Assembly: GCA_027919835.1 (NCBI GenBank)
Contig: JANVFP010000031.1
Location: 496,001 to 560,000, forward strand
DNA: 64,000 nucleotides
Reading direction: 5' to 3'
Origin: Lentinula raphanica
Lineage: Eukaryota; Basidiomycota; Agaricomycetes; Agaricales; Omphalotaceae
Shown here: piece by piece, positions 31,597-52,458 of the stretch
How the letters are laid out: each line of letters opens with the position of its first letter
Numbering within the stretch: the stretch's first letter is position 1
Notes under the pieces: generated by a model
The model's database searches: none
Seen by the model: only the letters and a program-made list of their open reading frames with translations
Told to the model about the DNA's origin: nothing
Program-made: the position numbers and the translations under genes

Positions 31597-32215
31597 CACC
31601 GAGTCATCATCAAACCCACTGTCATCCACTCACGACCTCCCTGCTGCATTCACTTGCACTATCACCCGCCTAGCTTTTCTTCTGCCTGTTCGAGCGCGGA
31701 AACGCGTTGTCGTCCTGCCAATTTTGCCGTCTATGTATCAATCTACCCTTGTACGCTCCAAAAACCTTCTCTGCGGGGCTTTGCTCTGAGATAGGTCTCA
31801 AGAACTCTATGGGAATCAGCTACTCACGCATGCTCGTCAAATGCCCATCAAGGGCCACCGAATCATCTTCAAACCCACCGTCATCCACTCGCGATCTCCC
31901 TGCTTCTTCTGCACGTTTGAGTGTGGAAACGGGTTGTGTCTTGCCAATCTTGCCGTCTATGTATCAATCTGTCTCTTATAGGGCTATCATAGCCTTATTG
32001 AAGCCTTCTCTTTGAAACCATGGGCTTTGCTCTGGGATGTGTCCCAAAAGCTATTGGTTATGCATCACTTATGCATGTTTCTCAAATGCTCATCAAGGAC
32101 CACCGAGTCATCATCAAACCCGCCACCATCCACTCGCGAACTCCGTGCTGCCTTCGATTTTCTCAATCTTTTCTCCTGTGTCGTTCAAAGCCTTGCCATA
32201 CCGTCGCTCTTGCCC
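31597..32215 (+). repeat. Three diverged tandem units of about 245-260 bp
   Basis: Three copies of the block CACCGARTCATCWTCAAACC start at 31597, 31856 and 32101. Flanking words such as GGGCTTTGCTCTG and CATCAAGG also repeat at the same spacing. Unit similarity is moderate. Possibly a subterminal repeat of the adjoining Plavaka transposon or a local satellite. Confidence 0.7.
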
Positions 32216-32399: not shown

Positions 32400-33586
32400 A
32401 TGCCCTTTGCGAACAACCACAAACGTATTTGGCGTTGTGTCCACTGTGGCCGCCAGTGTAAAACGGAGAAAGGGTTGAATTCCCATGTCACGCAAGTCCA
32501 ATGCTGGAAGGCCAGTAGTATGCCCTTAATGACTCTCCAGTCGATGCTCGCCGCTTGCACTACATCTCTTCGGAATCTTCCCTCCATCCCCACAGCTCCT
32601 GAACCAAATTCAAGCCATACTACTCAAAGCAATCACACCGATATTCCGACCCAAATGGAACTTCTGAATCATAATTTACAGAGGAATGATGAAGAGGGGT
32701 TGAACGACAACTTGTTGACTGGCCCAAATCCGCACTCGAGCTCAAGCTCGAACATCAACACAAACACCCTCAGCTATTCCCGTCAACAACACCTCTGCAT
32801 TGAACCTTTTCCTGGGGCGGCCGCTGTTTACTACCCTGGACAGACTGCTTTGGACGAATTCAATGACGACAGATTTGCCACAGAGAGGAAGACAAATCTA
32901 TACTATCCTTTTGCGAATCGAAACGAGTGGCAATCAGCGAATTGGCTGCTCACCTCTTCACTAACAATGGCAGAAATTGATGGTTACTTGAAGCTTGAAG
33001 TTGTATGTGAACCCTTCGTCTTCGATACCTACCTTCAGCTGACTTTGATGCTATTGTTTAGACCAAGAATAATCAGCTCTCTTTCCGTACATCCCATGAG
33101 CTCAAGGCACGCATGGACTTGCTCCCTCCTGTTGCTCGCTGGAAATCAAAAAAATTGATTGTGGATCCCTCGTATCCTACAAAGAAGCCTGTCCATCTGT
33201 TCTACAGGGATGCCATCGAAGTCCTGCAAGACATCCTCAAAAGCCCACTCGTCCAAGATTATCTTTCCTTCACACCACTCCAGATATTTGAAACGGCGGC
33301 AAAGTTAACTAAAGTCTATGACTCTTGGCTTTCAGGCGAACGAGCTTGGAGGCTGCAGGTATGCTTCCAGTTATCGCCCCTCCTAAATATCATCTCTAAC
33401 CGGGACTTATTTCTAGTCAGAGCTTCCTCAAGGGCACACCCTCATTGGGACAATCCTCTCCTCGGACAAAACTATGATTTCGGTTATGACTGGAAACCGA
33501 TGTGCTCATCCACTTCTGATCAGTGTTGCCAACATCGACTGTGAATATCTGTCTAAGGCCTCCCATCATCTGTTCCAACTGCTCGC
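32400..33586 (+). pseudogene. Plavaka (CACTA superfamily) transposase, 3'-truncated
   Basis: Starts MPFANNHKRIWRCVHCGRQC, a C2H2-type finger (CVHCGRQCKTEKGLNSHVTQ). Next is a Ser/Asn-rich linker, then the Plavaka landmarks YYPFANRNEWQSANWLLTS and SLTMAEIDGYLKL. After an intron (about 33001-33062) come LSFRTSHELKARMDLLP, VHLFYRDAIEVLQDILKSPL and YDSWLSGERAWRLQ. A second intron (about 33358-33416) leads to GTILSSDKTMISVMTGNR and HPLLISVANIDCEY. The frame is open until SKASHHLFQLLA, where the LTR of the large retrotransposon begins. The DDE catalytic region would lie downstream and is absent. It is broken by insertion or recombination, not by stops. Confidence 0.88.
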
Positions 33587-35285
33587 TGTTGCGCGGTTTT
33601 TCCGCGCAGGCGTGCAATGATCAAAAAGAACAACTTAGACCGTTGCATAGTATCAATAAGGACTGTAGTGAGCCCGAACTAGCAGTCAAACTTGTATCAG
33701 TATAAGCTAGGATACAGATCCTTTGGCAGGACCAGCCATGAATATCCACTTAGAGCTATTGCTCGCACCCTTGGTCGGGGATCCTTCAAGAATGCTGACT
33801 ACTGGTACGAGCACACCAAGGGAATATCGACTTAGTATCAAGATCTGCCGGATCGGCACAACTGAGTTTGGTACTTGGCTGTGATGACGGAAATTTCACT
33901 TGATCTAGCAGATCAGACACGATGAGAGCCTATCCGGACGAGTTACCACACGGAAACCCTACGCAAAGTAGCGGAAACCGTCGGAAACATGATGATCTAG
34001 CATTTCCGTGGCAGTACGGGTGAAACCCGCAGCGGAAACACGCATATGTTCAAGTTCTAAACTGGGATATAGCGTATGCTATGTACAGCTTTGACCAGTA
34101 CTCACGGAAACGCGCGGAAACCTACGGAAAACACTTCTGAAGCATTTATCTTCGTTGTCCGCTCCAGAACACCAGGCTATATGCATACCGTTCGAAAGCT
34201 ACGGACCAGACCTACCTGATCCGCGAGATCAACCGCTGTTACGAGTCTATCTCATTAACTTGGGAAGACCACTACCATTCCGCGGAAGCAAATTCGTCGG
34301 AAACACTTGAGCAACACAGGCAGGAGCCACTCTGACGAGTTAGGCACCCTAGCATGTGGATGCCGCACAGACCATGGTCGGAACTTGCTTGGTCTTCTAG
34401 ATCTGGCGAAAGTACGACGAAATACGGACAAGTTTCATCTTTTTCTCTGTTTTCTTTACTATTTCCTTGCGTGTTTGTATCGTTTCAGTCATATTTTACT
34501 ATTTAAGTGTATATTATCGGACTCCGTCCGTAGAAATAGCTAGATCTACTAGATCAAGGACAAATACGGGTATTGGACTTTTCGTAGTGTACTTAAAGAC
34601 CTGTATCCGCACAAATGAAACAAGTTTCGCGCCCAGATCTCTCTGAACTGGTAATCCTTTTCATCCATACGTGGGAGTAAAGGCTTCTAAGCCGTACCGG
34701 ACCTTGCAGATTAAGTGTGTTACTTCATCGCGATAAGCCCGACTTTTGAGTGGTTTGACTTGGTGTCTGTCACTTGCTAGTTGAAGGTAGACTCCGTTCC
34801 GGAGATACAGAGGACTTGGTCTCAGGTTGTGCCAAGTGAACGTGCAGAGTTTTGGTGGCTCTGTTCAAGTTGACACGTAGTGATTGGTGATCTGCGTGAT
34901 CTTCGAGGTTTTACTGAGAATAGTGATCAGTACTGCTTCACCCGGGAGCGGAATCGATTGGTCTACCATAACGTCTGGTACCCCGTTGCTTTCCGAGCCT
35001 AAAAACCCTTATCCGAGTGGAAGCCGCTCAAAACAAACCCTCTAGTCCAGATCTTACGACTGGTATATCCGTGTCACTTCGTTCTGCTGACCAGTATTGC
35101 TGATCTAAAAGATCTTACAAGACTGCGTTCGACTTGAGATATAAGATAGTGCGGAATCTCTGACAACGCCCCACACCTCGCTATAAATACAATTTGATTG
35201 ACGAATCCGTGAAGTCGTACTCTGTGTTCGTGCTAAGTGACCTGTCATAAGGCATTATACTAAGAACCGACTTTATACCTCGTTA
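33587..35285 (+). repeat. 5' LTR
   Basis: Begins TGTTGCGCGGTTTTTCCGCG, which itself forms a GCGCGG/CCGCGC hairpin, and ends ACCTCGTTA. A TATAAATA box is at 35182-35189. The termini TG...TA are not the usual TG...CA. Contains the palindrome TGATCTAGCAGATCA at 33901. Confidence 0.92.
35182..35189 (+). promoter_or_regulatory. TATA box of the 5' LTR
   Basis: TATAAATA about 100 bp before the LTR end; the same box is at 50808-50815 in the 3' LTR. It probably sets the U3/R border a short distance downstream. Confidence 0.65.
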
Positions 35286-35287
35286 TC

Positions 35288-35304
35288 TGGAGCCCACCGC
35301 GAGG
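35288..35304 (+). promoter_or_regulatory. Candidate primer binding site
   Basis: TGGAGCCCACCGCGAGG starts two bases after the LTR end. TGG pairs with a tRNA 3' CCA. The exact tRNA was not identified. Confidence 0.6.
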
Positions 35305-35728
35305 GGTGGAATCTATATTTTGGTCGAACTCGAGAGATCTTCTTGATTTCTCAAAACTACTGCCTTTGATCGAATTTATTTGATCATTAAAAATAGCTCC
35401 AAGAGCTACTCGGACTTCGAAGAACGCGGGCTCAGCAGATTTCTTTGATCCAGCGATACAAGCTTCAGATCAGCGAAAGCGCGCAACAAAGAAACCCTCT
35501 GTACCTGTTTACGATCCGAGAAACCTCGGAAGAGCGAGTACTAGCAATCCAGATAACGGGAGAGCTCCTAGACCATCTTCGGAACAACCAGTAACGAAGA
35601 GATCTAACGTAGTGCCAGGAAACGGTAGACAGAAGGCAGCTACTGTTGGACCAGATCCGCAATCTAGTTCAGATCCTACATTACAACCCGAACCATTTGA
35701 TTTGATACGACTGTTTTTACCCAACAAT

Positions 35729-37300
35729 ATGTCCGAAGTGCATAACGGAAATGATCAGGGAGCCGCGGGAGCGAATGCTAACGCACCAGCAAACCCGACT
35801 GCCCAACAAAAACGACCGGAGGATCAACTCGACATCATAAGGATGCTTGGTCCTCCTGAACTGACTCCTGCGGAACAAGCAGAGTATAACAATACCAAGT
35901 TTCCGCTTACGCACAAAACTGCTATGATCCTGGACTTGGCCAATCCGAGCATGATCCCCGAGTGGGTGAGGTTCTGTTTGAACACGTTCCAGGCTACGGA
36001 AGTTACCTCCGAGAAGGTGAAGATGCAAAAGATCTTTTCTTGGATGACCCTTCAGACCAAGCAGGCTCTCGAGCATCTTCCCGGCGCGCAGGAGGGAAGG
36101 GAAGACGCGGACTGTTTCTTGCGTTCCCTGTGTGAAAGATTCCCGGCATCTCTAGGGAGACCAATGGGTTCGAAGAATACGCTCTTGCAGATCGTACAGA
36201 ACTATGCTCCTTTGGGTGTCCGGGACGGAGATAGGTTGCTCGGATATTGTCTGTTGATGGAGGTAGAAGCCAATAAGTTGTTGAAACCGCCTCCGGCGAT
36301 AGGAAACACGGAATTGGTGTCTCTTTTCCTGTCAGCATTCGATGACGAGTTACGGAAAGCTGTGAACCGTAAGGTTCAACAGCAGGTACCTGCTTTCCGC
36401 GTAGAGAAACGTCGGGTCGATGATCCATATCTGTTCATAGAGTACAAGGAAGCAGCAGAGGCCGTAGCAAGGCACCCACCCTTGGAATCGTTGTACCGGA
36501 CGGTAACAAGTCGGGATGGTGTGGTCTTCAATGCGGAAACCCACTCAAGAGGAGGTGTATACGTTCCGATTGGTGGTCCTCCGGTGATCAAAGAAGAAGT
36601 ACCGGATCTCTCGCATTTCTTCCGGTCTACAACCAAGCCCGTTGAAGTCAAACGAGAGGCTTCCGAGGAAACGGAAAGAGCACTAGCTGCAAACAGGGAC
36701 CAGTACAGTGTGTTGGTCAAAGATTTGGGAGCACTTAAGGCTACCTACAAAGAGGAACTTGAGACGTTGGCTCAAATGCTGGCTAACATCAAGACCGGAA
36801 ATGTTCAACCTGCGCAACGGGCGCAGCCCCATACTGCCGCTTCTGGTAGTGGTAATCCCGGAAACAGTGGGCCTCCCCGCGGAATCATTAACACGAGTCC
36901 GAATAATGCACAAGGTCAAAGGTCTGAGATGTTGTGTTTCCTTTGTCGGGAACCGAACCATATGATGCAAAGTTGTCCAATGTTCTTGGAACTCTTAGGG
37001 AAAGGTTGGATTATGCGTGATCCGCAAGATCCAAAGCGTCTTAAGTTGAAGGATGGGTCTCCGCTACCGAACAACTTCGGAAGTGAGAGTAGATACCAAA
37101 AGATCATGAAGTATGGTCAGGCCAAAGGATGGCCCGAGGTTTCGACGATGATGAACGAGATGATCCCGGACAATGAGGATTACTCGGAACAGTTGGCCGG
37201 ATCCCCAGCTTGGATGGTCATTGCCAACCTGGCGGAAATGGTGCAAGGGAGATCTAGCAATGGTGTTGCTACGGTGTACACGAACGAGTCGGGAAACTGA
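35729..37300 (+). CDS. gag: Gag (capsid/nucleocapsid) of the large gypsy element
   Basis: 523 residues from MSEVHNGNDQGA. Residues about 40-240 are capsid-like and helical (HKTAMILDLANPSMIPEWVR, LLGYCLLMEVEANKLL). A coiled-coil segment follows (DQYSVLVKDLGALKATYKEE). The nucleocapsid zinc knuckle is CFLCREPNHMMQSC, a perfect C-x2-C-x4-H-x4-C, at about residue 405. The protein ends YTNESGN. ATG 35729 is the first in frame; the frame is open back to 35379 without any ATG, so a non-AUG or spliced start is possible. The stop at 37298-37300 directly follows a slippery heptamer leading to the protease frame. Confidence 0.9.
   Translation: MSEVHNGNDQGAAGANANAPANPTAQQKRPEDQLDIIRMLGPPELTPAEQAEYNNTKFPLTHKTAMILDLANPSMIPEWVRFCLNTFQATEVTSEKVKMQKIFSWMTLQTKQALEHLPGAQEGREDADCFLRSLCERFPASLGRPMGSKNTLLQIVQNYAPLGVRDGDRLLGYCLLMEVEANKLLKPPPAIGNTELVSLFLSAFDDELRKAVNRKVQQQVPAFRVEKRRVDDPYLFIEYKEAAEAVARHPPLESLYRTVTSRDGVVFNAETHSRGGVYVPIGGPPVIKEEVPDLSHFFRSTTKPVEVKREASEETERALAANRDQYSVLVKDLGALKATYKEELETLAQMLANIKTGNVQPAQRAQPHTAASGSGNPGNSGPPRGIINTSPNNAQGQRSEMLCFLCREPNHMMQSCPMFLELLGKGWIMRDPQDPKRLKLKDGSPLPNNFGSESRYQKIMKYGQAKGWPEVSTMMNEMIPDNEDYSEQLAGSPAWMVIANLAEMVQGRSSNGVATVYTNESGN
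37291..37300 (+). promoter_or_regulatory. Putative -1 frameshift site, gag to pro (G GGA AAC TGA)
   Basis: In the gag frame the end reads TCG GGA AAC TGA. The heptamer G GGA AAC fits X XXY YYZ in the right phase and the protease frame is -1. The alternative is reinitiation at the ATG at 37309, or a one-base deletion in this copy. Confidence 0.6.
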
Positions 37301-37308
37301 GGAATCCA

Positions 37309-38787
37309 ATGATTGAGTTGACCTCTGGACCCAGGACACGGTCTCAGCAACAGGCAACAACTCATGAGGGTGCCCCAAAGCCTAACTCACCAAAAGCAAT
37401 ACCCGCCGTCAAGAATAAACGCTTTGACGGGGTGCATATACCCATAGATCGAAATAACCCTAATAAAAACAAAACATCCGAAAAACCGAAGTCCAATCCG
37501 GACAATTCTACGCCTAATCATGACAGATCTGCTGGATCAGACCCCAATTCTTCTCAATCACTGAGGGAAGCTGCTTTGGAAAGGATACAGTCAGTGACCA
37601 TTGACGATTTAACGGATGAGAGTGCTTTAGGCTCGGGACGCGAGCCTGATCAGACAGATCAACGGAAATCGAAGCAAGTACGATTCCGCGATCCGTCACC
37701 TCCTCGTACGGAAAATCCGAGAAGACCATTTGATGATGTTCAGCCCAGAGAAGTTACACCTCACCCTCGAAATCAACCAAAGCCGGAAAAGGTACCTGAA
37801 TCTAAGGGATCTTCGAAGGCACCAAAATACAGGCTGCAGAATGAACTGTTTACGCCTGGTCTAGAGGAAGAGCTTGCTGACCGGATAGTGCGAAAGACGA
37901 TTGAATTGACTTCTTCCGAAGCGTTACAGCTTTCGGGGAAGATCAGGCAGATCGTAGCACGAAAGATACGGAATAAGCGAGTACTTCCGCAAGATCGAAA
38001 GAAAATGCTGCTGAACCTGGCTGATCAACAAGATCTAGCTACAGAAACACTTTCAAATGATGATTCCGAAGACGAACAAGTCATTTCCGTGGATGATCTA
38101 GCATTACCCGAAGCTTGGGCTTTTGAAAGATTATCTGAGGATCGGGATGGGATGAAAGCAGGAGCGTTTGTTCAAGTAGATCCAGTAGAATCATTCTTAA
38201 GTGATGTCGACGAGAATGATGAACGACGAGATATGACCATAGTTGCTACCATAGGCAATGGTCTCCGCGCCGTGTGGCCTGTTGTGAATGATCGGGAAGA
38301 TCTCGAAGTAGAGAACCTCCTGGACTCAGGATCACAGATAGTCGCAATCGATATGAGCGTGGCGTTAGGCTTAGGTCTAGGTTGGGATCCCGGAATCACC
38401 ATACAGATGCAAAATGTACATGGCGGGATCGCGCGGACCAAAGGTTTAGCCCGAAATGTGCCCTTTCGATTTGGACCAGTCACAGTGTATTTGCAGTTAC
38501 ATGTTCAAGAAAAGGCTCCCTTCGAAATACTGTTGGGACGTCCGTTTGATGTGTTAACTGAGAGTGTCATTCAGACTTTTGGATCGGGTGATCAGGAACT
38601 TACGATTACGGATCCGAATACTGGAAAACGGTATACCATGGGTACATATCCGAAAGGACATGGACCGAGAGCACCAAGGAAGGTGGTGGAACGAAAAGTA
38701 TCACAGCCAACTCAACAGTTGCAACCCGAATCAAGACGGGAAGACACTCACGAGGAGGCAGAGAAAGTTCCGCAACCAAATTTTTGA
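37309..38787 (+). CDS. pro: DUF4100 + aspartic protease (pro) of the large gypsy element
   Basis: About 492 residues from MIELTSGPRTRSQQQATT, preceded by four open codons in frame. The N-terminal third is hydrophilic and Pro/Ser-rich. The DUF4100-type segment runs LQNELFTPGLEEELADRIVR to IVARKIRNKR (about 172-222). The retropepsin has the active site LLDSGSQIVAIDM (D at about 337) and the flap/closing motif APFEILLGRPFDVL. It cleaves the polyprotein by family knowledge. The frame ends PQPNF-stop at 38785-38787 right behind A AAT TTT. Confidence 0.9.
   Translation: MIELTSGPRTRSQQQATTHEGAPKPNSPKAIPAVKNKRFDGVHIPIDRNNPNKNKTSEKPKSNPDNSTPNHDRSAGSDPNSSQSLREAALERIQSVTIDDLTDESALGSGREPDQTDQRKSKQVRFRDPSPPRTENPRRPFDDVQPREVTPHPRNQPKPEKVPESKGSSKAPKYRLQNELFTPGLEEELADRIVRKTIELTSSEALQLSGKIRQIVARKIRNKRVLPQDRKKMLLNLADQQDLATETLSNDDSEDEQVISVDDLALPEAWAFERLSEDRDGMKAGAFVQVDPVESFLSDVDENDERRDMTIVATIGNGLRAVWPVVNDREDLEVENLLDSGSQIVAIDMSVALGLGLGWDPGITIQMQNVHGGIARTKGLARNVPFRFGPVTVYLQLHVQEKAPFEILLGRPFDVLTESVIQTFGSGDQELTITDPNTGKRYTMGTYPKGHGPRAPRKVVERKVSQPTQQLQPESRREDTHEEAEKVPQPNF
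38778..38787 (+). promoter_or_regulatory. Putative -1 frameshift site, pro to pol (A AAT TTT TGA)
   Basis: The protease frame reads CCA AAT TTT TGA; A AAT TTT matches X XXY YYZ in phase. The RT frame is -1 and opens here (NNLWDLSSDQGE). A lost T in the T5 run would give the same picture. Confidence 0.6.
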
Positions 38788-41700
38788 ATAACCTCTGGGA
38801 TCTGAGTAGCGACCAGGGAGAGGTAGAAATCGCTCTTAGTGGGTACTGGGATGCTCAAGCGGAGGAAGTGGTTATCGAGTCGAATCAGGTGAAACGAGGT
38901 ACCTTCTCCGATGAAGAATTAGCGGACGTGTATGTACAATGCTGTCTGCCAACGATCGAGAAGTCACACCCCGGAATTGCCGAAATCATATCACTATACC
39001 TGAACCAAGGTGTAGATCATCAACAAAATCGTGTGATCAACCCATGGAAGGAAGGATTTAGAGCTGATCCGACCGTTGAGGACCTGAAGGAGACCTTTTA
39101 CCAGTCCATGACAAAGGACGTTAGGTGGAAAGACTTACACGGGTTAACTCGTCCATATGATAACACGGAAGATCTACCAGATCAAGTAGATCAAGCAAAA
39201 GATGCGGAATTGTCTTCAATGACCCAAGATTTGGAGGCTGCGATGCATCGTGTTAAGCTCTGGGAACTTAAGAACGAGACGATTGACCAGCATATATGCG
39301 CATATAATGATGTGTTTTTGTCAGATCAGCCAGTTTCGGTCTTCGGTTCTCGAAAATATAAGCCTGTAGCGGTGAAAGTTCGCCCTGTCAAGGCTGATCT
39401 ACCGGAAGAATTCCGTGTGCGGAGACACATTTACGGGGATCCTTTGGCTGATCTGCCAGATCTACCAACTCATCCTCCGGAATTCACGCCGGGTATTCGG
39501 TATACGCAAGAACGGAAAGAGATCATCGAGAAAAACCATGCGGAAGGTTTCCTTTCGGACGAGGAAATGAAGCTAGTTCATCATATGATGAAGTTGCAGG
39601 AAATGGGTTTTGCTTGGGAAGCCTCCGAGGGCGGAACATTCAGAGAGGACTTCTTTCCTCCCGTGAAAATTCCGGTCATACCTCATGAGCCCTGGGTCGA
39701 ACGAAATATTCCAATTCCTCCCGGAATCTTCGAAAAGGTTTGTAAGATCATCAAGGATAAGATTGATGCTGGAGTTTATGAACCATCCTGCTCGAGCTAT
39801 CGTTCAAAATGGTTTTGTGTGGTTAAGAAGGATGGAACGAGTCTTCGTTTAGTACATAGTTTGGAACCCTTGAACAAGGTGACCATTCAACACTCCGGGA
39901 TTCCTCCTGCTACCGCGGATATTGCTCGTCATTTTGCGGGTCGTGCCTGTGGTGGTTTGTTGGATATCTATGTGGGTTATGATGAACGACCACTTGATGT
40001 TAGTTCGCGAGATCTGACGACCTTCCAAACTCCGTACGGACCACACCGTCTCGTAAAGTTGCCTATGGGTTGGACGAACTCTGTTCCGATATTCCATGAC
40101 GATGTAACTTACATGATGCGAGATGAAATTCCGGAATATACTATTCCTTACGTCGATGATGTTCCTATCAGAGGCCCCGGGACTCGTTATGAATTACCGG
40201 GTGGCGGATACGAAACTATCCCTGAAAATCCTTTGATCAGACGATTTGTCTGGGAGCATCTCCAAAATGTGAACCGAATCATTCAGCGGATGCGGTATTG
40301 CGGTGGAACCTTCTCGGGACCTAAAGCATTCCTGTGTTGTGCTGAAACTGTAGTGGTTGGACACCGTTGCACGTACGAAGGACAGAAACCGGAAGATAGA
40401 ATCGCAACTACGGTTCTAACTTGGCCTCCGTGCTCTTCTAAGACACAGGTCCGAGCCTTTCTGGGAACTGTTGGTCAGCTCCGGATGTTCATTCACAATT
40501 ACGCTAAGAAAGCCTCACCTTTGACCAAATTAACGGCGAATATTCCGTTTGAGTGGAAGGATGAGCATGTCATAGCCATGGACCTGTTGAAAGACGGAGT
40601 CCGTAATGCACCAGCCTTAAGAGTCATAGTATATGACTGGGAAACACACTTAGCAGTGGATAGTTCTTACATGGGTACGGGATTTTACATCTATCAGATT
40701 GATCCTGTAGATCAGACGAAGATTTACTATAATTACTTCGGATCCATCCCGTATAATGAACGTGAAGCTCGGTTTTCTCAATCTAAGCGTGAACTCTATG
40801 GTTGAAGGTTGCTCTCCGAGCAACACACTATCTTCTTTATGGATGTCGGAAACTCACGGTGGAAACGGATGCTAGCTATATTCAAGGAATGCTTGAAAAT
40901 CCGAGTAGTGGTCCAAACGCTACGATCAACCGTTGGATTGAAGATATCCGTAAATTCCATTTCGATTTGATTCATGTCAAAGGAGCAACCTTTGGACCTG
41001 ATGGTTTGTCTCGAAGACCTCCGGGAGGTTGGACTACTCCTCGTCGGGAAACCGAAGAGGATCTAGCAGAAGATGCAGATGACTCCAACAACGTTAGGTT
41101 CTTCAAAGCGGACGAAGCGGATGATCCATTGCCCTTTGAATCATTCAAAGATCATATAGATCCCCGGACAGGATACTTTGCGAGACCATTGAAGATGAGT
41201 TTGCGGAAGATCTTCAAGTTGCCCGGGAGGAAGAGATCCAGCATGCATTCCTCAAAGAACGTTTAGAGGCCTCGGGAATGCCTTTGACCTCTCAGTTTCT
41301 GCAGTATACTGCGATCCCCGACAATGCTACTTGGGGACCTGATCACAAATATCCGATATCTCATAGATCGGATGGCGGAAATCGTCTAGATCAGCAGTTA
41401 CCGGAAATCCGAGCATGGCTTAAGGACCCGAATGCTGAGCAATTCGCGAAGTTGGACAAGAGACAACGAGCGGAAATGGACCGGAAAACACTGTCCTTTT
41501 CAATAGACTCGGAAGGTCGACTGTTCCATCGGAAACCATCCACAGATCAACTGCGTTTAGTGGTTGAACCGGAAAAACGAATGTATCTATTGCACAGTGC
41601 TCATGATGCTTAGGACACAAGGGCACATATGCTACGAAAGACTTCTTAGAAAAGAGGTTTTGGTGGCCTGATCTGGAGAAAGACGTGGAGTGGTATGTGA

Positions 41701-42953
41701 AAACATGTCAAGCCTGCCAAGATCGACTTAGGTCTTTGGTACGGATCCCTCCAACGGTGACCTTCACGCCATCCTTGTTCCAAAAGATACATATCGATAC
41801 TATGGTTATGTCTCCGGCCAGTAATGGTTGCAGATATATCGTTCACGGAAGGGATTCATTGTCGAGTTGGTCGGAAGCTAGGGCACTGAGAGTTGAAAAC
41901 GCGAGATCACTCGCGGAATGGTTCTTTGAAGACATCATATGTAGATGGGGATGTCCGGAAATCGTGGTCTCGGACAATGCACCACAGATGAAGCTTATGT
42001 TGAGATGGCTCGAACAGAAATACGGGATCCGTGGAATACAGATATCGCCTTACAATTCACAAGCTAACGGAAAGATTGACGTGCTCACTTTGATCTGAGA
42101 CAAGCACTTGCGAAAGCGTGTGCGGGAGATCTGTCAAAATGGTACTACTTCTTGAAACCGATACTTTGGGCTGATCGTATTACTGCACGGAGAGGTTTAG
42201 GCTGTTCACCATACTTCGTAGCTACCGGTACGGAACCTCTGCTACCTTTCGATATTGTTGAATCTACATATTTGGTCAATCCACCAAATCGAATACTATC
42301 ACGGGAAGAGTTACTGGGCTTCCGGGCTCAGGCTCTTTCCAAACATCGTTCCTTCGTCGAGAACATGAAATCACGGATCGACGAGAACAAACGTCGAGAA
42401 GCGAGAGTTTTCGAGGAAAAGTACAAGTACACATTAAGGACTGGGATTTCAAACCGGGAACCTTAGTACAGTACGGAACACCGCCATCGAGAAGAATTTG
42501 GATCGGAAAATGTACCTTCGATATCGTGGACCTATGGTTGTCATCCGGAGGACACGAGGAGGTGCATATATCATTGCGGAAATGGATGGCACTGTACTTA
42601 AAGACAAAGTGGGTGCTTTCCGTGTGATCCCGCATCATGCTCGTTACGAACCGATTGAACTGCCGGAAAATATACATGATCTGATAGATCTGTCGCCCGA
42701 GCAGTTAGAATCTATGGTACAGGATGAGGAAGACGAACCTGAGGAAGTGGAGGACTTTATTTTCAGTACTGTCCCTCGAATAAACATTTCCGGTGATGAT
42801 CAGTCGAATTCCGTTGAACCACCACTGGTTCCGCCTGTTGAACAGCTTGATCCGGAGGATCTGAAGGCTGCTGAGTCCGAAGATCAAGAGGAAGAGGCGA
42901 ATCCGTCTCTACCGAATGGTCCACGACGAAGTGGTCGACGGAAATCTTTCTAA
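38784..42953 (+). pseudogene. pol: Pol: reverse transcriptase, RNase H, integrase, with six frame losses
   Basis: The RT is intact through 40805: a Ty3-type core KIIKDKIDAGVYEPSCSSYR, VKLPMGWTNSVPIF and the catalytic box TIPYVDDVPIRGP (about residue 455). RNase H starts HLAVDSSYMGTGFYIYQ and continues in another frame as LTVETDASYIQGML, LIHVKGATFGPDGLSRRP. Integrase has an HHCC finger ending CQACQ, core IHIDTMVMSP, VVSDNAPQM and NSQANGKI. Frame breaks lie near 40805, 41190, 41612, 42072, 42434 and 42487, each explained by one missing base, usually in a run of two or three. The last frame ends at 42953 with NGPRRSGRRKSF. No chromodomain is seen. Either sequencing/assembly error or recent decay. 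Confidence 0.85.
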
Positions 42954-42976
42954 ACATGCCTGATCCAACAGATCAG

Positions 42977-42990
42977 TTAGTTTGGGGGAG
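42977..42990 (+). promoter_or_regulatory. Internal polypurine-tract copy 1
   Basis: TTAGTTTGGGGGAG directly after pol. Identical in its core to the PPT before the 3' LTR, but 6.2 kb upstream of it. Confidence 0.6.
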
Positions 42991-43163
42991 TTTCCGCGAT
43001 GTTTCAACTTATTCTATCTCAATATCACTCGAGGAATTTAGTTGCCACTGGATTACCTCAAAAACTACCAATGATACTTGACTTGACAAAAGTACAGGTA
43101 TAAAAATAGGCGACAGGGCAGAATGAACGATGATCTAGATGGTCAGCCTCGATAAGCACTTGC

Positions 43164-45169
43164 TTAAGGTGCGGAGCGTGGCCCTTGCATTTCGGGATCC
43201 TCTAAGTCTGTCTGCGCAATTTTAATTACGGGTGGCAGCGACGGTGGTGCGGAAAACACGTACACCTCTTCAACGTCGGCAGGAGTCATGGTGGTGTCCT
43301 CGTCTTTGGGCAGAGGTTCACCAGCCTTCCGAGCAGCCCTGGCGTTGTCGATGATCCGTTGACTAGCCTCCCCACGGTGTGCATAGAAACGAGCTTTCAT
43401 AACACAGTCGAAGAGTTGGGTCGTATGGAAGTTGATGAAGGCATTGTACTGCTCTTCGGTGTACGATTCAACCTCCGGGTTGTGGGCGAGTCCGATGTTG
43501 TGAAGAAGTTGCACGAGATCTCGATGATCTGTATCGTCGGGGGTACCTGTAACGATAATCAGTAACACGAAGCTTGCGGAAGGTCTCCGGACTATGCAAA
43601 ACGAAATTATCTAACGGAAAATGCGTGATCTAGCAGATCAACGAGTTTCCGTAGAAGTCCGTACGAAAAAGCGGAAAATGGAAGTGGTACTCACTAGTAT
43701 CCGCGAGTTCCAACGAATACTTCACCCTCTTAATCAGATCTTCACCAACAGCACGAGGCTGGGAGATCGCGGTTACAGCGTGCACAGTGCTATGTGCTGG
43801 GAGACAGAGCCCGCTCAGTCTCATCACCGTCCGCGGGACCAACATCGCGTTCGGAACGTTTGCGCTTGCTCTTGGTCTTGGAAGACTTCGGAGTGTCATC
43901 GTCGTCGACGGTGTCGCGCTTTTTAGTTTTGGTCTTAGCCTTCGCAGGAGTAGAATCCTCGACGTCGTCAGCCATCTAGGCACGGGTTAGTCATAAACTT
44001 GTCTGATCTACAGATCAGCCACGTACCGAGACATCCTGATCTGCCAGAGCGGCGGGTTCGTCGTCAGGGGATTTCTTCTTGCTTTTGGAACGAGTAGAGG
44101 GCCTGGTAGGAGGAGGAGGAGTCGCTTCCGCGGTCTTCTTCCCCTTCTCGCCTTTTTCACGTTCCTCCTTGGCGTGCTTGATCCTTTCGTCCATACCAAT
44201 GATATGATCGATGACGAGTTCAGCACGACGAGGCTGGATAAACCGTTAGCAGCTGATCTAACAGATCAAGGTACCATACTTACCGGAGGGTCATACCGCG
44301 GAACAGGAACCCCATACGCAGTGATTCTTGCATTTCAAAGCGTTGCTCGCGTGGACTACGGAAGTGGCCTCGCATGGGAAGTCCGCGGCCTCGTAAATGG
44401 TTAGCAAGTGCGCCTCGAGGACCTTTTGGAGGAGAAGGACCATGTTCTGCAAGATCAGCATCCTGGAACCTTTAGTCAATAAACGAATCTTCGAAACAGT
44501 TGCGGAAACGCACCACCTCGGCCATGAACTTGGCGTCAGCATCGGAAACTGCTGGATCTGCTGGATCAGTCGCAACTTCCTTGCCTTTCGACTTGGATTT
44601 CGACGGTCCTTCAGGATCAGCAGGTGGAACACTAGGTCCGCGAGTACTGACGCAGGGAACCCTGTCTGCCTTGGTCCTCACGGAGCTTTTTGCGACGAAG
44701 GTCGTTCAGCTGAATGTAGAAACTGACGATCTCAGCGTTCTTCCCTCCCTCTTCGGAGAGTTTGGGAAACTGCTTAGGGATCTCGTCACGGATAGTGCGG
44801 TACGCATTCACGGCGGAAAGTAATTCCTCCGCGAGATTGTCGTACGCCCGCAGATATTCCTTGTTCATACACGCAGCGTCGCGGGACACTCGAATGAGCT
44901 AACGGAAAATGGTTAGTTTTGTAGATCTAGCAGATCAACGATTTCCGTACCAAATGAGTGTACGCGCAACGGACATCGTTCAAAAAGATCGTTTTGTTGG
45001 ACGTGGTGAACTCGACCTTGTCCTTGCTAGAACTGTACTTGGCACCTTGCCAGGCCAGGCTCTTGTCATCGCTAACACGAGCAGCCCAGTACTCCGCGTC
45101 GACGCACCAGTTGGCAAAGTCAGCTTCAAGCGAGATAGGGAGATTGTGGTACTCGAAGTTGGGAGCCAT
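43164..45169 (-). CDS. Antisense gene 1 of the retrotransposon, unknown function
   Basis: Six exons from MAPNFEYHNLPISLEADFAN. Introns 44899-44950, 44463-44513, 44234-44283, 43976-44026 and 43547-43694 all have GT-AG ends. The first part is helical (AYDNLAEELLSAVNAYRTIR). A Lys-rich linker (GPSKSKSKGKEVATDP) and an Arg-rich stretch (GPRGALANHLRGRGLPMRGH) follow, then a charged section MADDVEDSTPAKAKTKTKKR with nuclear-signal-like KSKRKRSE. The end is ELADTSTPDDTDHRDLVQLL to PEMQGPRSAP. No known domain. Two frame breaks (about 44690 and 43795) are not solved by introns. Four of the five introns contain the palindrome GATCTNNNAGATC. It lies between two PPT copies. Confidence 0.6.
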
Positions 45170-45255
45170 TTTTCGTTGAGTTGGGAGTCGGATCTCTTAG
45201 ATCAAGGGCTTTTATACCTTTTCCGATGCTTCGGGTCAGCAGGGGACTGCTGAGC

Positions 45256-45270
45256 TTTAGTTTGGGGGAG
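45256..45270 (+). promoter_or_regulatory. Internal polypurine-tract copy 2
   Basis: TTTAGTTTGGGGGAG, identical over 15 bases to the PPT at 49197. Lies 86 bp upstream of the antisense gene 1 start. Confidence 0.6.
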
Positions 45271-45983
45271 GGGACACACGGTGTTTCAAGAATTTTCGAA
45301 ATTTCAGAAATTTTCATGAAAATTTTACGAGATCTAAAAGACCTGTGCTCGTGGACAGCTTAAGCATGCGTACAACGCAAAGACTTAGATCTAAAACCGA
45401 CGCAGTTTGCAATTTGTAAAGCCCAATGGATTTAACATGCCATGTGAGGCTGCAACCACCAACTTGATAACCGAAGAAATAACATTGATGAGTCTGATCT
45501 AGCAGATCAAAATGATCTAGCAGATCAGACTCAGTTCAGGAGGAAAAGACAGCGGAAAAGTAATGCAAAAGACTCAGAAAGGACATAGAGTGTCTAAGGC
45601 AGATACTTAGAAGAACAACATAGGTCAATGAGCTACTTATAGGGTTCTATCAGGTAGCAGCCAAGGAAAACTTGAAGCATTAATTTATAGGCTGGGGAAG
45701 GGAAACCTCAGAAGACATCTTAGGAGATATCTCAAGTGTCTTGAAGTTTCAACTTAGGAATTCTGCAAGAGATCTCAGACCAAGGAGTAGAAGACAAGAT
45801 TGAGCCCACATGGGCATTGACATTCCAAGCAGAAGGCTACTAGCTAGCTAGAGACCAAGAAGGGTACTATATACTGCAAGACAAAGTACAAGTTGTGAGG
45901 TAGAATTAGTCTGGCTCGAGAGAGAGTCCGATCACTAATCTACGAGGGCAAAAGTCCGGAAATTGCATAAGTCCATGGCTACC
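45271..45983. other. Spacer between the antisense genes
   Basis: No gene seen. Has an AT-rich palindromic start (GAAATTTCAGAAATTTTC) and two adjacent copies of TGATCTAGCAGATCA (45495-45509 and 45513-45527). May be the promoter of antisense gene 1 read leftward together with the 3' flank of gene 2. Confidence 0.5.
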
Positions 45984-48751
45984 CTACTTACGAGACTGGG
46001 GCGATCTCAGCGTTGTGGGAGGTTCGAGCTCTACCGGAACGTCTTCGTCGGTATCGTCCCCCGCTATTTCCTCCTCTTCACTATCGTCGTGCTCAGCTAC
46101 CAAAGCCTGTGCCACCGAGGTCCGGGAAGTTCCTTCTTCGACGTCCATCTCGTCGTCGGCTGTAGTTGATGCGGGAGGCGTGTGAAATTTAGACTCGGAC
46201 GAATAATTGCTTGGTACGGCAGCTGCAGGACGGCGGCGTGAACGGAGGATTGGCTCTGGAGGTAGCAAAGTGGCGACGGGAGGAGAACGAGGAGCTGAGG
46301 ACGGATCAGCCACGGAAGTGGTAACCAAGGCCGGAATAGAGGGCCCAGTAGAATCATCGGCGGGAAACTCATTAGATCGAAGGAATTCTTCTAAACGAGC
46401 CGTGTCGTTGGGGTCCACCAGGAAAGATGAGAGGTTGCACGCGGAATCCCAACCAAAGAAGGTGGCCAGCCAAGTGAGCAGGTCGTAATCCAAGGGGAGA
46501 TTCGGATTGTCGTCCGCCCATTTAGACAAGACCACGTTAAAGTCGAACCCGTTTGTACGAATATCTTGCAGATTAAGGGCGAGGCGACGACGGACGTCAC
46601 CAAAGATAGTTTCGAAGGAGGACATGATGTGACCCATCTCTTCAAGGGTATCGCGGAACCGCTCTAAAGAACCGGAATAACCTGGAAAGCGTTAGAACAA
46701 GGGCATAGGTCGAAGAATGGAAACCACCTTACCTGCAGGGTAACCCTGGATAGTGTTGTGTATGGCGAGAAAGCGATCCCGGTGTTCGTCCAAACCCAGG
46801 CAGCTGGGGCAGTTGCGGTGTGTACGATCGCAGTGACCGCAGGGCCCGCCGATTTTAGTACCGCCCTCACAGACGACGCCCCGGCTAAGGCATGACAAAC
46901 AGTTGTTGGGAGAAAGCAAGGCTTCAGGAGAAGGAAGAGTGGTGCTAGTGGATGACTGTAGAGGTCGAGAAGCTAGATAGTTATATCGACTTAAACCCTG
47001 TAAGGAGAAAGAGGTGTCGGCAGAATTTATGAAGGCTCCAAAGTTCTTCATCTCGTCGGAAAGTTTCCATTTGGGTCGACGAAGGAACGGTAGCTTGGGA
47101 GCGCGAGGGTTCTGAGCGACAGTCTTGCGAATCAGCTCGGAAAAGGGAGCCTTGGGTTTAAAATTCGGGTTGGTCAGGAAGCGGGCATGAGTAGACGTTC
47201 GGGAATCGTCGCCGGTAAAGTAATCCGGTTCCCCCTCTTGAATGCGGAAGGGTTCCTCGTCTTTGGGAGACGATTCCTCCAGAGCTGGGACCAGGGACTC
47301 CGCGCGAGCTTTCCCAGCGGATTTCTGGGTGCGACGCTTCTTAGTCGGCGGGGCAGCGGTGGAAGAAGAAAGGGCAATGCTGGGTGGAGAATGTTCGCGT
47401 TTATGAACGGAAGACGGAGCAGGAACTTTTCGAAACTCCTCAGGGATTTTCGGTTTCGCCTTGGCGGCACGCGCAATGCTGGGACGAATGACTAACACAT
47501 CAGGAGTCCCCGAATCCTTGAACACGTCGGTTGCCGTGAGGTCTTCCTCCTCAACATCCTCAACAATGGGATCTGGAGTGACTGGAAACTTCGCAGGGGG
47601 ACGACGAGACTGGGGCGAGTTGGTAGTCAGCGGCTGACCTATGGGTTGGTCAAAGTCTGGCGAAAGGGGACGCAGGCGTCGTTTGGGAACCGAAGAAGAG
47701 GAAGCCTGGGGTGCTGGCAAAGGCACTGCAAATGCCGGGTCAGGAAGAAGAGCTCGTTTAGAGGCAGGATGGACGATCTGGTCGACACGGGAACCCTGAC
47801 TGGCAACAGTAAGGATGAGTTGTCCCTCCCTGGTCAAAGAATCAAACGGTATAGGAAGAGCGAGGTCCTGGAGTTCAAAAATTTCGGTAATATCCTCCTG
47901 AGCAAGGACATTAGCCAACCTGGATTAAGGAGGAAGGGCGAATGGCTTACCAGCAGACGATCGCGAGTTTTAAGACTCATACCCGGGCCGTCTCTAATCC
48001 TGGCATCGTATACTCGTTCAGCGTACTCGGCCTCGGACAGATGTTCTTCGCAAAATTCGCAGATGAGGATGACTAGGAGAGGCGCGACGAGGGGGCAGTT
48101 ACTGTGACCGTGCCAAAACAACTGGTAGTATTGCTACCGAGAGGGATGAGCAAGGCGATGGGAACAAAATAGGTCGAGGAGACTTACCAAGCTATGCGAA
48201 AAGTTGGGGAGGCTGGTGAATTTTAAGAGACGACGATGGATCTCACTCTTAGCGAGATGGCCACGGATAATTCGCGAAAAACCGCGCTGCAGGAAGGCTA
48301 GGGCTTGATAAAGTTGAAAGGCCTCGCCTGTGGAGACGGACCCGGTCGCGAAAGTGGTACAAAAGGAGGTCAATTGGGAAGGATAAAAAGTCTGAAGCGG
48401 GGTCTCGCCGGAAACTTGGTCCAAGAGCTCTTTAAAATCGACATCTTCCGGATGGGAATAGCGTCTCAGGCTAAACGCCGGACTGGCATTGTTGGGTTTG
48501 TGTTTCCAGCGGTTGACGAGTATTGAGCATTCCTCAGCGGATGCTGGAAGGAATAGGGCGTCTGAATCGTTGGCAACCTGGCCCAGCTCTCGAACTGAGC
48601 GGTCGAAATGAACGTGATGTACGGCGTCGAGGTCCAAAGTATCCACAGGACGAACTGAAAGCTTCTTCCGCGGGTAGGGCACAGTAGAAGGAGTGGTAGT
48701 TAACTTGGGGAGAGGCCGCTTCGACGAGGAGCCTTTGGACGAAGAAGCCAT
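45984..48751 (-). CDS. Antisense gene 2 of the retrotransposon, Cys-rich zinc-finger-like protein
   Basis: Four exons splice without any frame break, giving about 850 residues. The start is MASSSKGSSSKRPLPKLTTT; introns lie at about 48125-48187, 47895-47947 and 46682-46732. The N-terminal third is globular (LVNRWKHKPNNASPAFSLRR, FSRIIRGHLAKSEIHRRL). A long disordered Pro/Ser/Glu section contains basic signals (KREHSPPS, PPTKKRRTQKS). A cysteine cluster follows: CLSCLSRGVVCEGG, GPCGHCDRTHRNCPSC. After it come LERFRDTLEEMGHIMSSFET and an acidic tail (DDSEEEEIAGDDTDED). The Cys/His spacing suggests zinc binding, perhaps nucleic-acid contact. I know no named family. It is intact although pol is not. 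ATG 48751 is used because the upstream in-frame start is TTG. Confidence 0.75.
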
Positions 48752-49196
48752 CGTGTCGAGAGCGAGGACAACGATGGGAGAAGCAGAGGAAGAAACGAAC
48801 TTAGAAAATTTTTCCAAGTCCGTTGAACCTTTGTCAGCACTTACTAATCCCAGGCCTAGGCATAGGGATAGTATGTAAAATGTTGAAAAGAAGTTGTTTC
48901 GAGGAAGTGTGTATGTGATGTGATAGAATTGGAAGCGTGATTTACGTCATGATATCACACTCGGAAATTAAGCGCCGATAACAAACCGAGGACTTAGTGT
49001 TTTCGACAAGAGGACAGCGGAGTTGTCGGTACGGGTGCTAAGATCAACGGATCAACTTGATCTGTTAGATCACCGGGAATAATCAAGTCAGAATGTTGCG
49101 GAAAAGTGATTGATCTGTCGGATCAGCTACAGTACCACTCCTTTTGAGGGATACGAGCCTACACTACCCATAGCGATGACCGGGGACGGTCAGATC
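48752..49196. other. Upstream region of antisense gene 2
   Basis: No gene seen. Contains TGATCTGTTAGATCA (49058-49072) and a related TGATCTGTCGGATCA. Probably promoter and 5' UTR of antisense gene 2. Confidence 0.45.
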
Positions 49197-49211
49197 TTTA
49201 GTTTGGGGGAG
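49197..49211 (+). promoter_or_regulatory. Polypurine tract before the 3' LTR
   Basis: TTTAGTTTGGGGGAGA ends directly at the LTR start TGTTGCG (49213). This is the expected position of the plus-strand primer. Confidence 0.8.
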
Positions 49212-49212
49212 A

Positions 49213-50911
49213 TGTTGCGCGGTTTTTCCGCGCAGGCGTGCAATGATCAAAAAGACCAACTTAGACCATTGCATAGTATCAATAAGGACTGTAGTGAGCC
49301 CGAACTAGCAGTCAAACTTGTATCAGTATAAGCTGGGATACAGATCCTTTGGCAGGATCAGCCATGAATATCCACTTAGAGCTATTGCTCGCACCCTTGG
49401 TCGGGGATCCTTCAAGAATGCTGACTACTGGTACGAGCACACCAAGGGAATACCGACTTAGTATCAAGATCTGCCGGATCGGCACAACTGAGTTTGGTAC
49501 TTGGCTGTGATGACGGAAATTTCACTTGATCTAGCAGATCAGACACGATGAGAACCTATCCGGACGAGTTACCACACGGAAACCCTACGCAAAGTAGCGG
49601 AAACCGTCGGAAACATGATGATCTAGTATTTCCGTGGCAGTACGGGTGAAACCCGCAGCGGAAACACGCATATGTTCAAGTTCTAAACTGGGATATAGCG
49701 TATGCTATGTACAGCTTTGACCAGTACTCACGGAGACGCGCGGAAACCTACGGAAAACACTTCTGAAGCATTGATCTGCATTGTCCGCTCCGGAACACCA
49801 GGCTATATGCATACCGTTCGAAAGCTACGGACCAGACCTACCTGATCCGCGAGATCAACCACTGTTATGAGTCTATCTCATTAACTTGGGGAGACCACTA
49901 CTATTCCGCGGAAGCAAATTCGTCGGAAACACTTGAGCAACACAGGCAGGAGCCACTCTGACGAGTTAGGCACCCTAGCATGTGGATGCCGCACAGACCA
50001 TGGTCGGAACTTGCTTGATCTTCTAGATCTGGCGAAAGTACGACGAAATACGGACAAGTTTCATCTTTTTCTCTGTTTTCCTTACTATTTCCTTGCGTGT
50101 TTGTATCGTTTCAGTCATATTTTACTATTTAAGTGTATATTATCGGACTCCGTCCGTAGAAATAGCTAGATCTACTAGATCAAAGACAAATACGGGTATT
50201 GGACTTTTCGTAGTGTACTTAAAGACCTGTATCCGCACAAATGAAACAAGTTTCGCGCCCAGATCTCTCTGAACTGGTAATCCTTTTCATCCATACGTGG
50301 GAGTAAAGGCTTCTAAGCCGTACCGGACCTTGCAGATTAAGTGTGTTACTTCATCGCGATAAGCCCGACTTTTGAGTGGTTTGACTTGGTGTCTGTCACT
50401 TGCTAGTTGAAGGTAGACTCCGTTCCGGAGATACAGAGGACTTGGTCTCAGGTTGTGCCGAGTGAACGTGCAGAGTTTTGGTGGCTCTGTTCAAGTTGAC
50501 ACGTAGTGATTGGTGATCTGCGTGATCTTCGAGGTTTTACTGAGAATAGTGATCAGTACTGCTTCACCCAGGAGCGGAATCGATTGGTCTACCATAACGT
50601 CTGGTACTCCGTTGCTTTCCGAGCCTAAAACCCCTTATCCGAGTGGAAGCCACTCAAAACAAACCCCTTAGTCCAGATCTTACGACTGGTATATCCGTGT
50701 CACTTCGTTCTGCTGACCAGTATTGCTGATCTAAAAGATCTTACAAGACTGCGTTCGACTTGAGATATAAGATAGTGCGGAATCTCTGACAACGCCCCAC
50801 ACCTCGCTATAAATACAATTTGATTGACGAATCCGTGAAGTCGTACTCTGTGTTCGTGCTAAGTGACCTGTCATAAGGCATTATACTAAGAACCGACTTT
50901 ATACCTCGTTA
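49213..50911 (+). repeat. 3' LTR
   Basis: Same length as the 5' LTR. About 27 differences were counted by eye, some 23 of them transitions. TATA box at 50808-50815. Ends ACCTCGTTA, after which the sequence switches straight into a chromovirus integrase frame. Confidence 0.92.
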
Positions 50912-52458
50912 GCGCCTCTGTCCTCAGTCTATCCGCGGATGCCTCTCTCCTTCGCCAGATCAAGGCTGGTTATGATAAGGACGATTTCATACACAAGATT
51001 GTCCATGGTGGTTCTCTCGTTCCTGGAATATCACGCTCCGAGGGACTATGGTATGTCCATGGCCGTCTGTATGTCCCGGATTCTGGTTCAATTCGCGAGG
51101 ACCTTTTTCATCTCGCTCACGATACCTCTGGCCATTTCGGTGCGGACAAGACGTACGCACTGCTCGCCGAATCCTTCTACTGGCCCTCTATGCGTACACA
51201 TTTATACAAGAAGTACATCCCCGCTTGTGAGCCTTGTCAACGCAACAAGGATCGTACTAGCAAGACTTCAAAGGGTCCCCTCCACCCCCTTCCTGTCCCC
51301 GATGCTCGTGGCAACAGTGTCGCTATCGACTTCATCGGTCCATTGCCTGAAGACGAGGGATTCAACTGCATCATCTCGATGACGGACCGTCTCGGAGCTG
51401 ACCTCAAGATAGTACCGTCGCGCCTTGATCTGACCGCTGAGCAGTTTGCTCGTGTCTTTTTCGACACTTGGTACTGCGACAATGGCCTACCCTTGGAGAT
51501 CGTTTGCGACAGAGATAAGTTGTTCGTCTCGAAGTTTTGGCAGACATTCACTAAGCTTTCTGGCGTCAGATTGGCGATGTCCTCGGCATATCACCCTGAA
51601 ACGGATGGTTCTAGCGAACGTTCCAACAAAACTATCAACCAGTGTCTACGATTTTACGTCGAACGTAACCAAAAAGGCTGGTCAAGAGCACTGCCTAAGG
51701 TCAGGTTCGACATCATGAACTCCCTCAATGCCTCCACCGGCCTCTCCATGTTCCAACTTCGTCTGGGCCGCTCCCCGCGTGTATTCCCCCCTCTGGTTGC
51801 CACCGAAGTCCCTGCTTCCGACCCTTCTTCGTCTGCCCGCGACGCTGCTGATCTCATAGAGTCGTTCCGTACCATCGAGTTGGCCGCTCGCGACGCACTC
51901 ACCCTTGCTAAGGTTGTGCAGGCTTATCACGCTGACAAACACCGAGGACCCTGTGAAATTTTCGAGGTCGGCGACAAGGTCTGGCTCACGACGTGGCACC
52001 GTCGCGACAGCTACAAGAAGTCGGGCGAATTCCGTGCGGCGAAATTCTTCCCCCGGTTCGACGGACCTTACAATATCGCGAACGCACACCCCGAGTCCAG
52101 TTTTTATACCCTCGACTTGCCTTCGCACTCAAAAGTCTTCCCTTCGTATCACGTTGAACACCTCAAGCGTTACGTTCCGAACGACCCGGTTTTGTTCCCT
52201 TCGCGTGAACGAGGCACGCCTCCCTCTGCTATTGTGGACGGACAGATCGAGTATGAAGTGGAGCGTATTCTGGACTCTCGACGACGTGGTCGTGGCTGGC
52301 AGTTTCTTGTCCGTTGGGTTGCCCAGGCGCCTAGCGAGGACCAATGGCTCTCATACTCTACGCTGAAGGATTGCGCCTGCTTGGACGACTGGGTCCGGGC
52401 TGGTGGCGACGGCCCCTCCGAATTACTTACCTCGGTCGACATTGCCCCTCGTGCTTAA
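50912..52458 (+). pseudogene. Chromovirus integrase with C-terminal chromodomain, 5'-truncated
   Basis: A single open frame from the LTR junction, SADASLLRQIKAGYDKDDF. The integrase zinc finger is HLAHDTSGHFGADKT...CEPCQ. The catalytic core reads VAIDFIGPLPE, VCDRDKLFVSKFW and HPETDGSSERSNK, supplying D, D and E. The C-terminal GPY-like part follows (VWLTTWHRRDSYKK, FDGPYNIANAHPESSFY). The chromodomain runs YEVERILDSRRRGRGWQFLV to WLSYSTLKDCACLDDW. Chromodomains guide such elements to heterochromatin by family knowledge. Gag, protease, RT and RNase H are absent. No stop interrupts the remaining part, so truncation was recent. Confidence 0.92.

Follow-up and report, generated by a model that had tools for sequence, protein, structure and literature searches.

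The window analysed here, a 64,000-nucleotide stretch of DNA from the mushroom Lentinula raphanica, related to the shiitake, contains a Ty3-type LTR retrotransposon that carries two antisense genes between pol and its 3' LTR. We give an even chance to the reading that the second of these, gene 2, occurs in near-identical elements as a large set of alleles that diverged long ago, that it is likely to encode a nuclear regulator, and that its diversity is kept by selection. The anatomy of the element, purifying selection in the copies modelled, a sharply bounded divergent block at gene 2, the exchange of this block between backbones and a matching contrast in a sister family are all shown by the data. 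A first-pass annotation had placed two antisense, intron-containing genes between pol and the 3' LTR, and the LTR pair, the domain order, the positions of PPT-like tracts and the gene models all agree with it; the hypervariability of gene 2, a frameshift in the window's gene 1 and a second family of the same design go beyond what it described.

The element, assigned here to family A, is laid out in the window as follows.

33587..50911, plus strand: family A Ty3-type LTR retrotransposon, 17.3 kb, recognised by its LTR pair and domains
33587..35285, plus strand: 5' LTR, one of a direct repeat pair, 1,699 bp, 98.47% identical
35384..37300, plus strand: gag, an open frame of 638 codons that includes a CCHC-like motif
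37258..42953, plus strand: protease-RT-RNase H-integrase, broken across several frames in the window copy
42977..42990, plus strand: PPT-like tract 1, 3' of pol, TTAGTTTGGGGGAG
45257..45270, plus strand: PPT-like tract 2, separating antisense genes 1 and 2, TTAGTTTGGGGGAG
49198..49211, plus strand: PPT-like tract 3, adjoining the 3' LTR, TTAGTTTGGGGGAG
49213..50911, plus strand: 3' LTR, the other member of the direct repeat pair, 1,699 bp, 98.47% identical

The PPT-like sequence TTAGTTTGGGGGAG occurs at 42977, 45257 and 49198, which places the stretch 42977-49211 between pol and the 3' LTR. Pfam matches in the sense frames run Asp_protease_2, RT_RNaseH_2, Integrase_H2C2, which is the Ty3 order; in the window's pol frames rve fell below the cut-off score and RVT_1 had no match. 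The assignment to Ty3/Gypsy thus draws on two direct LTRs, on domain order and on a target-site duplication seen in other copies. The window copy itself is flanked by TCGC on the left (33583-33586) and GCGC on the right (50912-50915), with no matching duplication, and a 4-bp NCGN duplication matches in five of seven other copies tested and is absent in two. All 17 of the 3' flanks compared (50912-50915 and those of copies L009-L028) begin NCG, and the same pattern stands at the corresponding place in the 5' flanks of seven other copies tested and of the window copy, so the insertion target is a CG-centred 4-bp site. Copy L009, on contig C4, has a 3' LTR identical to the 5' LTR of the window copy and carries TCGC on its right flank, which, set beside the window's own TCGC and GCGC, would fit an exchange between the two copies.

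The element belongs to a numerous family in its own genome (49.06 Mb searched, in 75 contigs). Its 5' LTR was found at 99-100% identity in at least 40 places, among those scored of 303 candidates; gag matched at full length and 97-100% identity in 37 of the 42 matches listed, and RT at full length or within two bases and 98-100% identity in 28 of the 42 listed. In at least 10 other copies, with RT matches of 98% identity or more, the open frame runs to 1447-1458 codons; some copies are therefore less damaged than this one. Two neighbouring features were seen outside the antisense genes. A 522-codon open frame at 50890-52458, integrase-like by eye, starts at the right end of the element and is apparently part of another LTR element beside or around this one, and three tandem copies of a 56-bp unit, 84-86% identical and spaced by 259 and 245, lie outside the element at 31596-32155.

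Gene 1 (45169-43164) was modelled with six exons and five predicted introns, the number given in the first-pass annotation, the fifth being about 148 nt; the edges of introns 2-4 were read by eye and are good to a few bases.

44951..45169, minus strand: gene 1 exon 1
44514..44898, minus strand: gene 1 exon 2, frameshifted in the window copy
44284..44462, minus strand: gene 1 exon 3, edges approximate
44027..44233, minus strand: gene 1 exon 4, edges approximate
43695..43975, minus strand: gene 1 exon 5, edges approximate
43164..43546, minus strand: gene 1 exon 6

In the window copy, gene 1 is thrown out of frame by a small change in the length of exon 2. Other copies keep the segment, as the first-pass annotation expected: gene 1 is covered over at least 99% of its length, at 95-100% identity, in 28 of the 40 matches listed from its own genome, and the stretch from PPT-like tract 2 to tract 3 (PPT2-PPT3) with gene 2 is complete in 17 of the 21 copies examined. 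Across exons 1-4 in 16 copies, mean dS is 0.0905 and mean dN 0.0096, a ratio of 0.106; these are 16 of 21 copies, and the dropping of five whose models differed (the window copy, L009, L013, L022 and L028) biases the figure towards intact copies. The introns of gene 1 differ between copies by 0.080, similar to its dS.

Gene 2 reads through four exons without a frame break, as had been noted at first pass: the spliced model is identical over all 869 aa to the deposited L. raphanica protein C8R42DRAFT_727145. Its introns are 54, 53 and 51 nt long, all GT-AG, and exon 2 is 183 nt in eight of the nine family A models listed. The splicing of both antisense genes is predicted from gene models.

48188..48751, minus strand: gene 2 exon 1
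47951..48133, minus strand: gene 2 exon 2, 183 nt
46733..47897, minus strand: gene 2 exon 3, with a Cys cluster
45984..46681, minus strand: gene 2 exon 4

Among ten modelled alleles of gene 2 (10 of 18 models, eight being left out), dN/dS is 0.057-0.150 in the eight of 45 pairs that have a finite dS. In seven models introns 1 and 2 keep their place, their phase and their GT-AG or GC-AG ends, with mean sequence identities of 0.54 and 0.44. Both antisense genes are therefore under purifying selection in the copies modelled, with dN/dS between copies of about 0.1 and not 1, in keeping with the first-pass view of them as genes, and this ratio together with the retention of intron positions without intron sequence indicates that they are more than chance. 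Damage in the window copy, where pol is split over frames and gene 1 is frameshifted, is what one would see if the antisense frames were chance products, or leftovers of host genes caught in a defunct element. Given a full deposited model, the low dN/dS, the conserved intron positions and homologues of both genes in the sister family, family B, we find this explanation scarcely credible; barring alignment artefacts, the dN/dS and family B results refute it. The first-pass proposal that antisense introns survive retrotransposition fits the data, since copies stand at different NCGN sites with their introns kept and five of seven with a 4-bp duplication: the antisense orientation would let the introns pass through the genomic RNA unspliced. 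Each antisense gene is bracketed by PPT-like tracts, and each was perhaps added together with a copy of the tract; the presence of such tracts around the antisense genes in both families suggests either stepwise addition of gene plus tract or extra plus-strand priming sites.

The predicted product of gene 2 has the layout of a putative nuclear regulator. In the structure model a helical part (about residues 94-285) leads into a long linker, variable in sequence and bearing a KKRR motif; beyond it come a Cys cluster, more helical structure and an acidic tail. The cluster, at residues 582-615, reads C-x2-C-x6-C-x9-C-x2-C-x6-C-x2-C, and so matches C-x2-C-x6-C-x5..16-C-x2-C-x6..8-C, which we take to be the spacing of the fungal Zn2Cys6 transcription factors (PF00172). 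Among the 57 deposited gene 2 proteins, partial ones included, 40 have the six-Cys pattern, and a KKR-type basic motif is present in 44 of the 57. Pfam searches of 31 gene 2 proteins at E up to 1 gave no Zn_clus match, nothing above E 0.02 and no family at a convincing score; a PDB sequence search found no relative (a single match, E 5.9), and the structure model, with a mean pLDDT of 46, had no significant fold match. The conserved KKRR could take the protein into the nucleus and the Cys cluster could bind metal, perhaps DNA.

Gene 1 is conserved between copies, unlike gene 2, which is hypervariable. In the own-genome search only five of the 49 gene 2 matches listed reach 87% identity over most of the query, the rest being short or at 64-85%. 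In the 17 copies with a complete PPT2-PPT3 stretch (of the 21 examined, L011 runs off its contig and PPT3 was not seen in L010, L018 and L019), mean divergence is 2.53% on the gene 1 side and 1.76% on the LTR side but 32.8% between PPT2 and PPT3. These copies fall into 13 gene 2 allele groups, and pairs from different groups differ by at least 22.7%; window/L009, L017/L021 and L023/L024/L026 are multi-copy groups and the other ten copies are single. Over the 45 pairs of the ten modelled alleles the median pS is 0.77 and the median pN 0.29, so that synonymous sites are saturated between allele groups. The dN/dS of gene 2 is no higher than that of gene 1, and there is thus no sign of fast protein change.

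The divergent block fits the gene, starting about 50 bp upstream of the ATG and ending in the 3' UTR.

45510..48800, minus strand: hypervariable cassette, spanning ~50 bp at the end of the gene 2 leader, the coding sequence and ~470 bp of 3' UTR
45496..45526, no strand assigned: double GATCTAGCAGATC (GATC) palindrome at the cassette's 3' edge

At the 5' edge of gene 2, mean pairwise identity is 0.94-1.0 over 48800-49179, 0.77-0.85 over 48740-48799 (the ATG is at 48751) and 0.44-0.57 just inside, with about 0.47 within the block. At the 3' edge it is 0.95-1.0 up to 45479, 0.90 at 45480-45509 and then about 0.7 through the 3' UTR, which puts this distal edge between 45480 and 45540. The alleles of gene 2 are thus far older than the flanks and the block is centred on the gene, as is looked for under balancing selection.

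Two short motifs are abundant in the element backbone. GATC-N5-GATC occurs 39 times in the element (33587-50911) and twice in the remaining 46.7 kb of the window, GATCTNNNAGATC occurs 17 times in the element against 0.18 expected in shuffles, and over the 17 copies the GATC palindrome motif was counted 187 times in 48.5 kb of flanks and twice in 46.9 kb of gene 2. No hexamer is more enriched in the LTR than CGGAAA (9 occurrences, with 0.4 expected under a first-order model), which is strand-biased in the element, with 55 sense and 15 antisense occurrences, against 12 and 17 in the rest of the window and 2 and 2 in family B. We rejected both motifs as allele-specific binding sites: they are dense in the backbone and nearly absent from gene 2, and no link to alleles was found.

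That variation is confined to one gene of an RT-carrying element recalls the bacterial diversity-generating retroelements, and a hypermutation system that rewrites gene 2 would account for this. Its codons are under purifying selection, however, and its introns and 3' UTR vary too; the alleles recur across strains and are mosaics, and the close pairs L017/L021 and window/L009 differ by under 1.1%. No template repeat of at least 40 nt was found within 30000-60000, and the variation spans the whole of gene 2. We hold hypermutation to be very improbable, and have rejected it, as we have the chance-ORF explanation.

Family B, marked by RT matches at 73-84% identity (about 75%), has both antisense genes and the same contrast between a conserved and a variable one. 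Its anatomy was read from one copy, L030, which has PPT-like tracts at 1881 and 4141, a gene 1 homologue that is 31-39% identical in two segments, and a gene 2 homologue that agrees with family A in the phase of introns 1 and 2 and in the 183-nt length of exon 2. Gene 1 of family B is present in at least 20 full copies at 97-100% identity, and seven of the 25 gene 2 matches listed are nearly full, at 100, 98, 96, 79, 79, 79 and 78%. In a gene 2 tree of 26 of the 57 deposited proteins plus family B, patristic distances are 1.24-1.76 inside family A and 2.6 between the families; a separate alignment took in 31 of 54 proteins. Protein searches with gene 2 gave 54, 46 and 54 matches, which are 57 different proteins, all from L. 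raphanica; their locus-tag prefixes point to six assemblies, and clustering at 70% identity gives 24 groups, eight of which span more than one assembly. No relatives outside L. raphanica were found by this method, which needs shared five-residue words and in two of the searches scored only the best 7,991 and 7,984 candidates; family B, at about 30% identity, was itself largely missed, so equally distant relatives in other species would be missed too.

Gene 2 alleles have moved between backbones. L017 and L021 differ at 12 positions in about 3,500 bases of gene 2, with 50 differences in 1,491 bases on the gene 1 side and 30 in 2,250 on the LTR side, and with only 2 differences, once more, in the first 750 bases; that their gene 2 is nearly the same although the flanks have diverged shows that the cassette has been exchanged. 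L009 and L015 have the opposite pattern, with close flanks and a gene 2 that is 30-45% different in most windows. Recombination between two co-packaged genomic RNAs during reverse transcription could move the alleles in this way. In Mantel tests the distances at gene 2 did not correlate significantly with those at either flank (r 0.14, p 0.11; r 0.11, p 0.20), and left and right flank distances were likewise uncorrelated (r 0.12, p 0.29), so recombination is general and the Mantel result by itself does not single out gene 2. Mosaics also occur within the gene, as in P0020/P0031, where 80-aa windows range from 0.94 to 0.24 identity; they were seen by sliding windows only, and several of the top pairs include deposited models with doubtful N termini (P0005, P0033, P0034).

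This general recombination, seen in the uncorrelated flanks and the mosaics, is the strength of the main rival explanation, in which one LTR-gag-pol backbone was spread by recombination and the gene 2s of old lineages were left in place, with no selection for diversity; that dN/dS is the same in gene 2 as in gene 1 also agrees with it. For such a sweep, at least 13 allele groups must have undergone exchanges to either side of one and the same 3.3-kb block, and family B must have done likewise. Nor do the matches listed include a family A element with a backbone of the same age as its gene 2: gag and RT at full length were either 97-100% identical or of family B. We regard this explanation as possible, if doubtful.

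A further possibility is that the nucleotide sequence of gene 2, and not its protein, is selected to differ: the gene 2 mRNA, antisense to the genomic RNA by anatomy, would be complementary to genomic RNA of the same allele, and pairing or small RNAs would limit common alleles. The saturation of synonymous sites and of introns 1 and 2 beside a constrained protein would fit such interference. Gene 1 is antisense as well, yet its mean dS is only 0.09, and the transcribed 3' UTR of gene 2 is less diverged than the coding region, on which the peak therefore falls. Interference at the RNA level is in our view quite unlikely.

The combination of old alleles, constrained proteins and sharp edges, in two families, argues for long-term selection that favours diversity in gene 2. 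From the age and location of the diversity, this selection may be frequency-dependent. The gene 2 protein would then work in the nucleus, where it would regulate or protect the element or act on host-side control, and rare alleles would gain because common ones are recognised by the host or by resident copies, in the manner proposed for mating-type and immunity genes. In a bolder and, we think, unlikely form of this proposal, gene 2 would be the element's own compatibility gene, setting self-recognition groups among copies, and a rare allele would escape being repressed by the host or by resident copies; a single genome would hold two families that keep dozens of ancient alleles, traded as cassettes, whose introns survive only through their backwards orientation. 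Several observations weigh against selection of this kind. The dN/dS of gene 2 does not exceed that of gene 1, some copies of gene 2 are damaged (L013 has several stops in its tblastn match and the L026 model ends at 592 aa), and no second variable region that might be the partner in allele-specific recognition was found in the element.

The L. raphanica element thus has a pair of antisense genes with predicted introns, under strong purifying selection in the copies modelled, and the alleles of one of them are far older than their carrier. It lends itself to testing whether selection among the copies of a selfish element is frequency-dependent, whether reverse transcription in a fungus is accompanied by recombination, and how introns persist in retroelements. 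Because elements with identical LTRs can still differ, the diversity of gene 2 would be missed by LTR dating and by consensus libraries.

Both plant elements and retroviruses have members with antisense accessory genes. A full-text literature search, which covered few subscription papers, turned up no LTR element of a fungus that carries intron-containing genes in antisense or a hypervariable gene, and the main text of a 2011 survey of fungal LTR elements mentions neither antisense genes nor introns (PMC3248453). The plant Ty3/Gypsy elements Retand, Grande and RIRE2 have antisense ORFs between pol and the 3' LTR and resemble the L. raphanica element in their Ty3 affiliation, in a long region between pol and the 3' LTR, in antisense genes present in nearly all copies and in a suggested regulatory role; their hosts are plants and not fungi, and the accessible text of that paper mentions neither introns nor hypervariability like that of gene 2 (PMC11963269). 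Like the Retand type, most copies of the L. raphanica element carry an antisense gene between pol and the 3' LTR, whereas the TRP28 domain (PF04195) of the Retand type was not found in 31 L. raphanica gene 2 proteins (Pfam, E up to 1). LTR elements of bdelloid rotifers have captured ORF3 types 3' of pol and exchange them as modules; as far as the available text of that paper goes, these are different gene types in different families, whereas gene 2 is a set of alleles of one gene in one family, and introns are unmentioned there and antisense is mentioned once (PMC5408684). HBZ of HTLV-1 is an antisense gene near the 3' LTR with a spliced transcript and, according to the parts of the source available, it regulates the transcription of its own element (PMC1459196). 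HBZ is a bZIP factor, whereas gene 2 has no bZIP match in Pfam, and L. raphanica has two genes with several introns whose splicing is predicted. We know of no allele series of HBZ.

The compatibility-gene proposal has its likenesses in mating-type loci, incompatibility loci and the interference groups of retroviral env. The env subgroups, for example those of avian leukosis virus, combine near-identical gag-pol with divergent versions of one gene, a pattern explained by receptor interference; env is a sense gene for a membrane glycoprotein, whereas gene 2 is antisense and its product combines a Cys cluster with a basic motif of the nuclear type. The multi-allelic mating-type and heterokaryon-incompatibility loci of fungi have anciently diverged alleles between conserved flanks, but those are host loci, whereas the alleles of gene 2 ride on a multi-copy mobile element.
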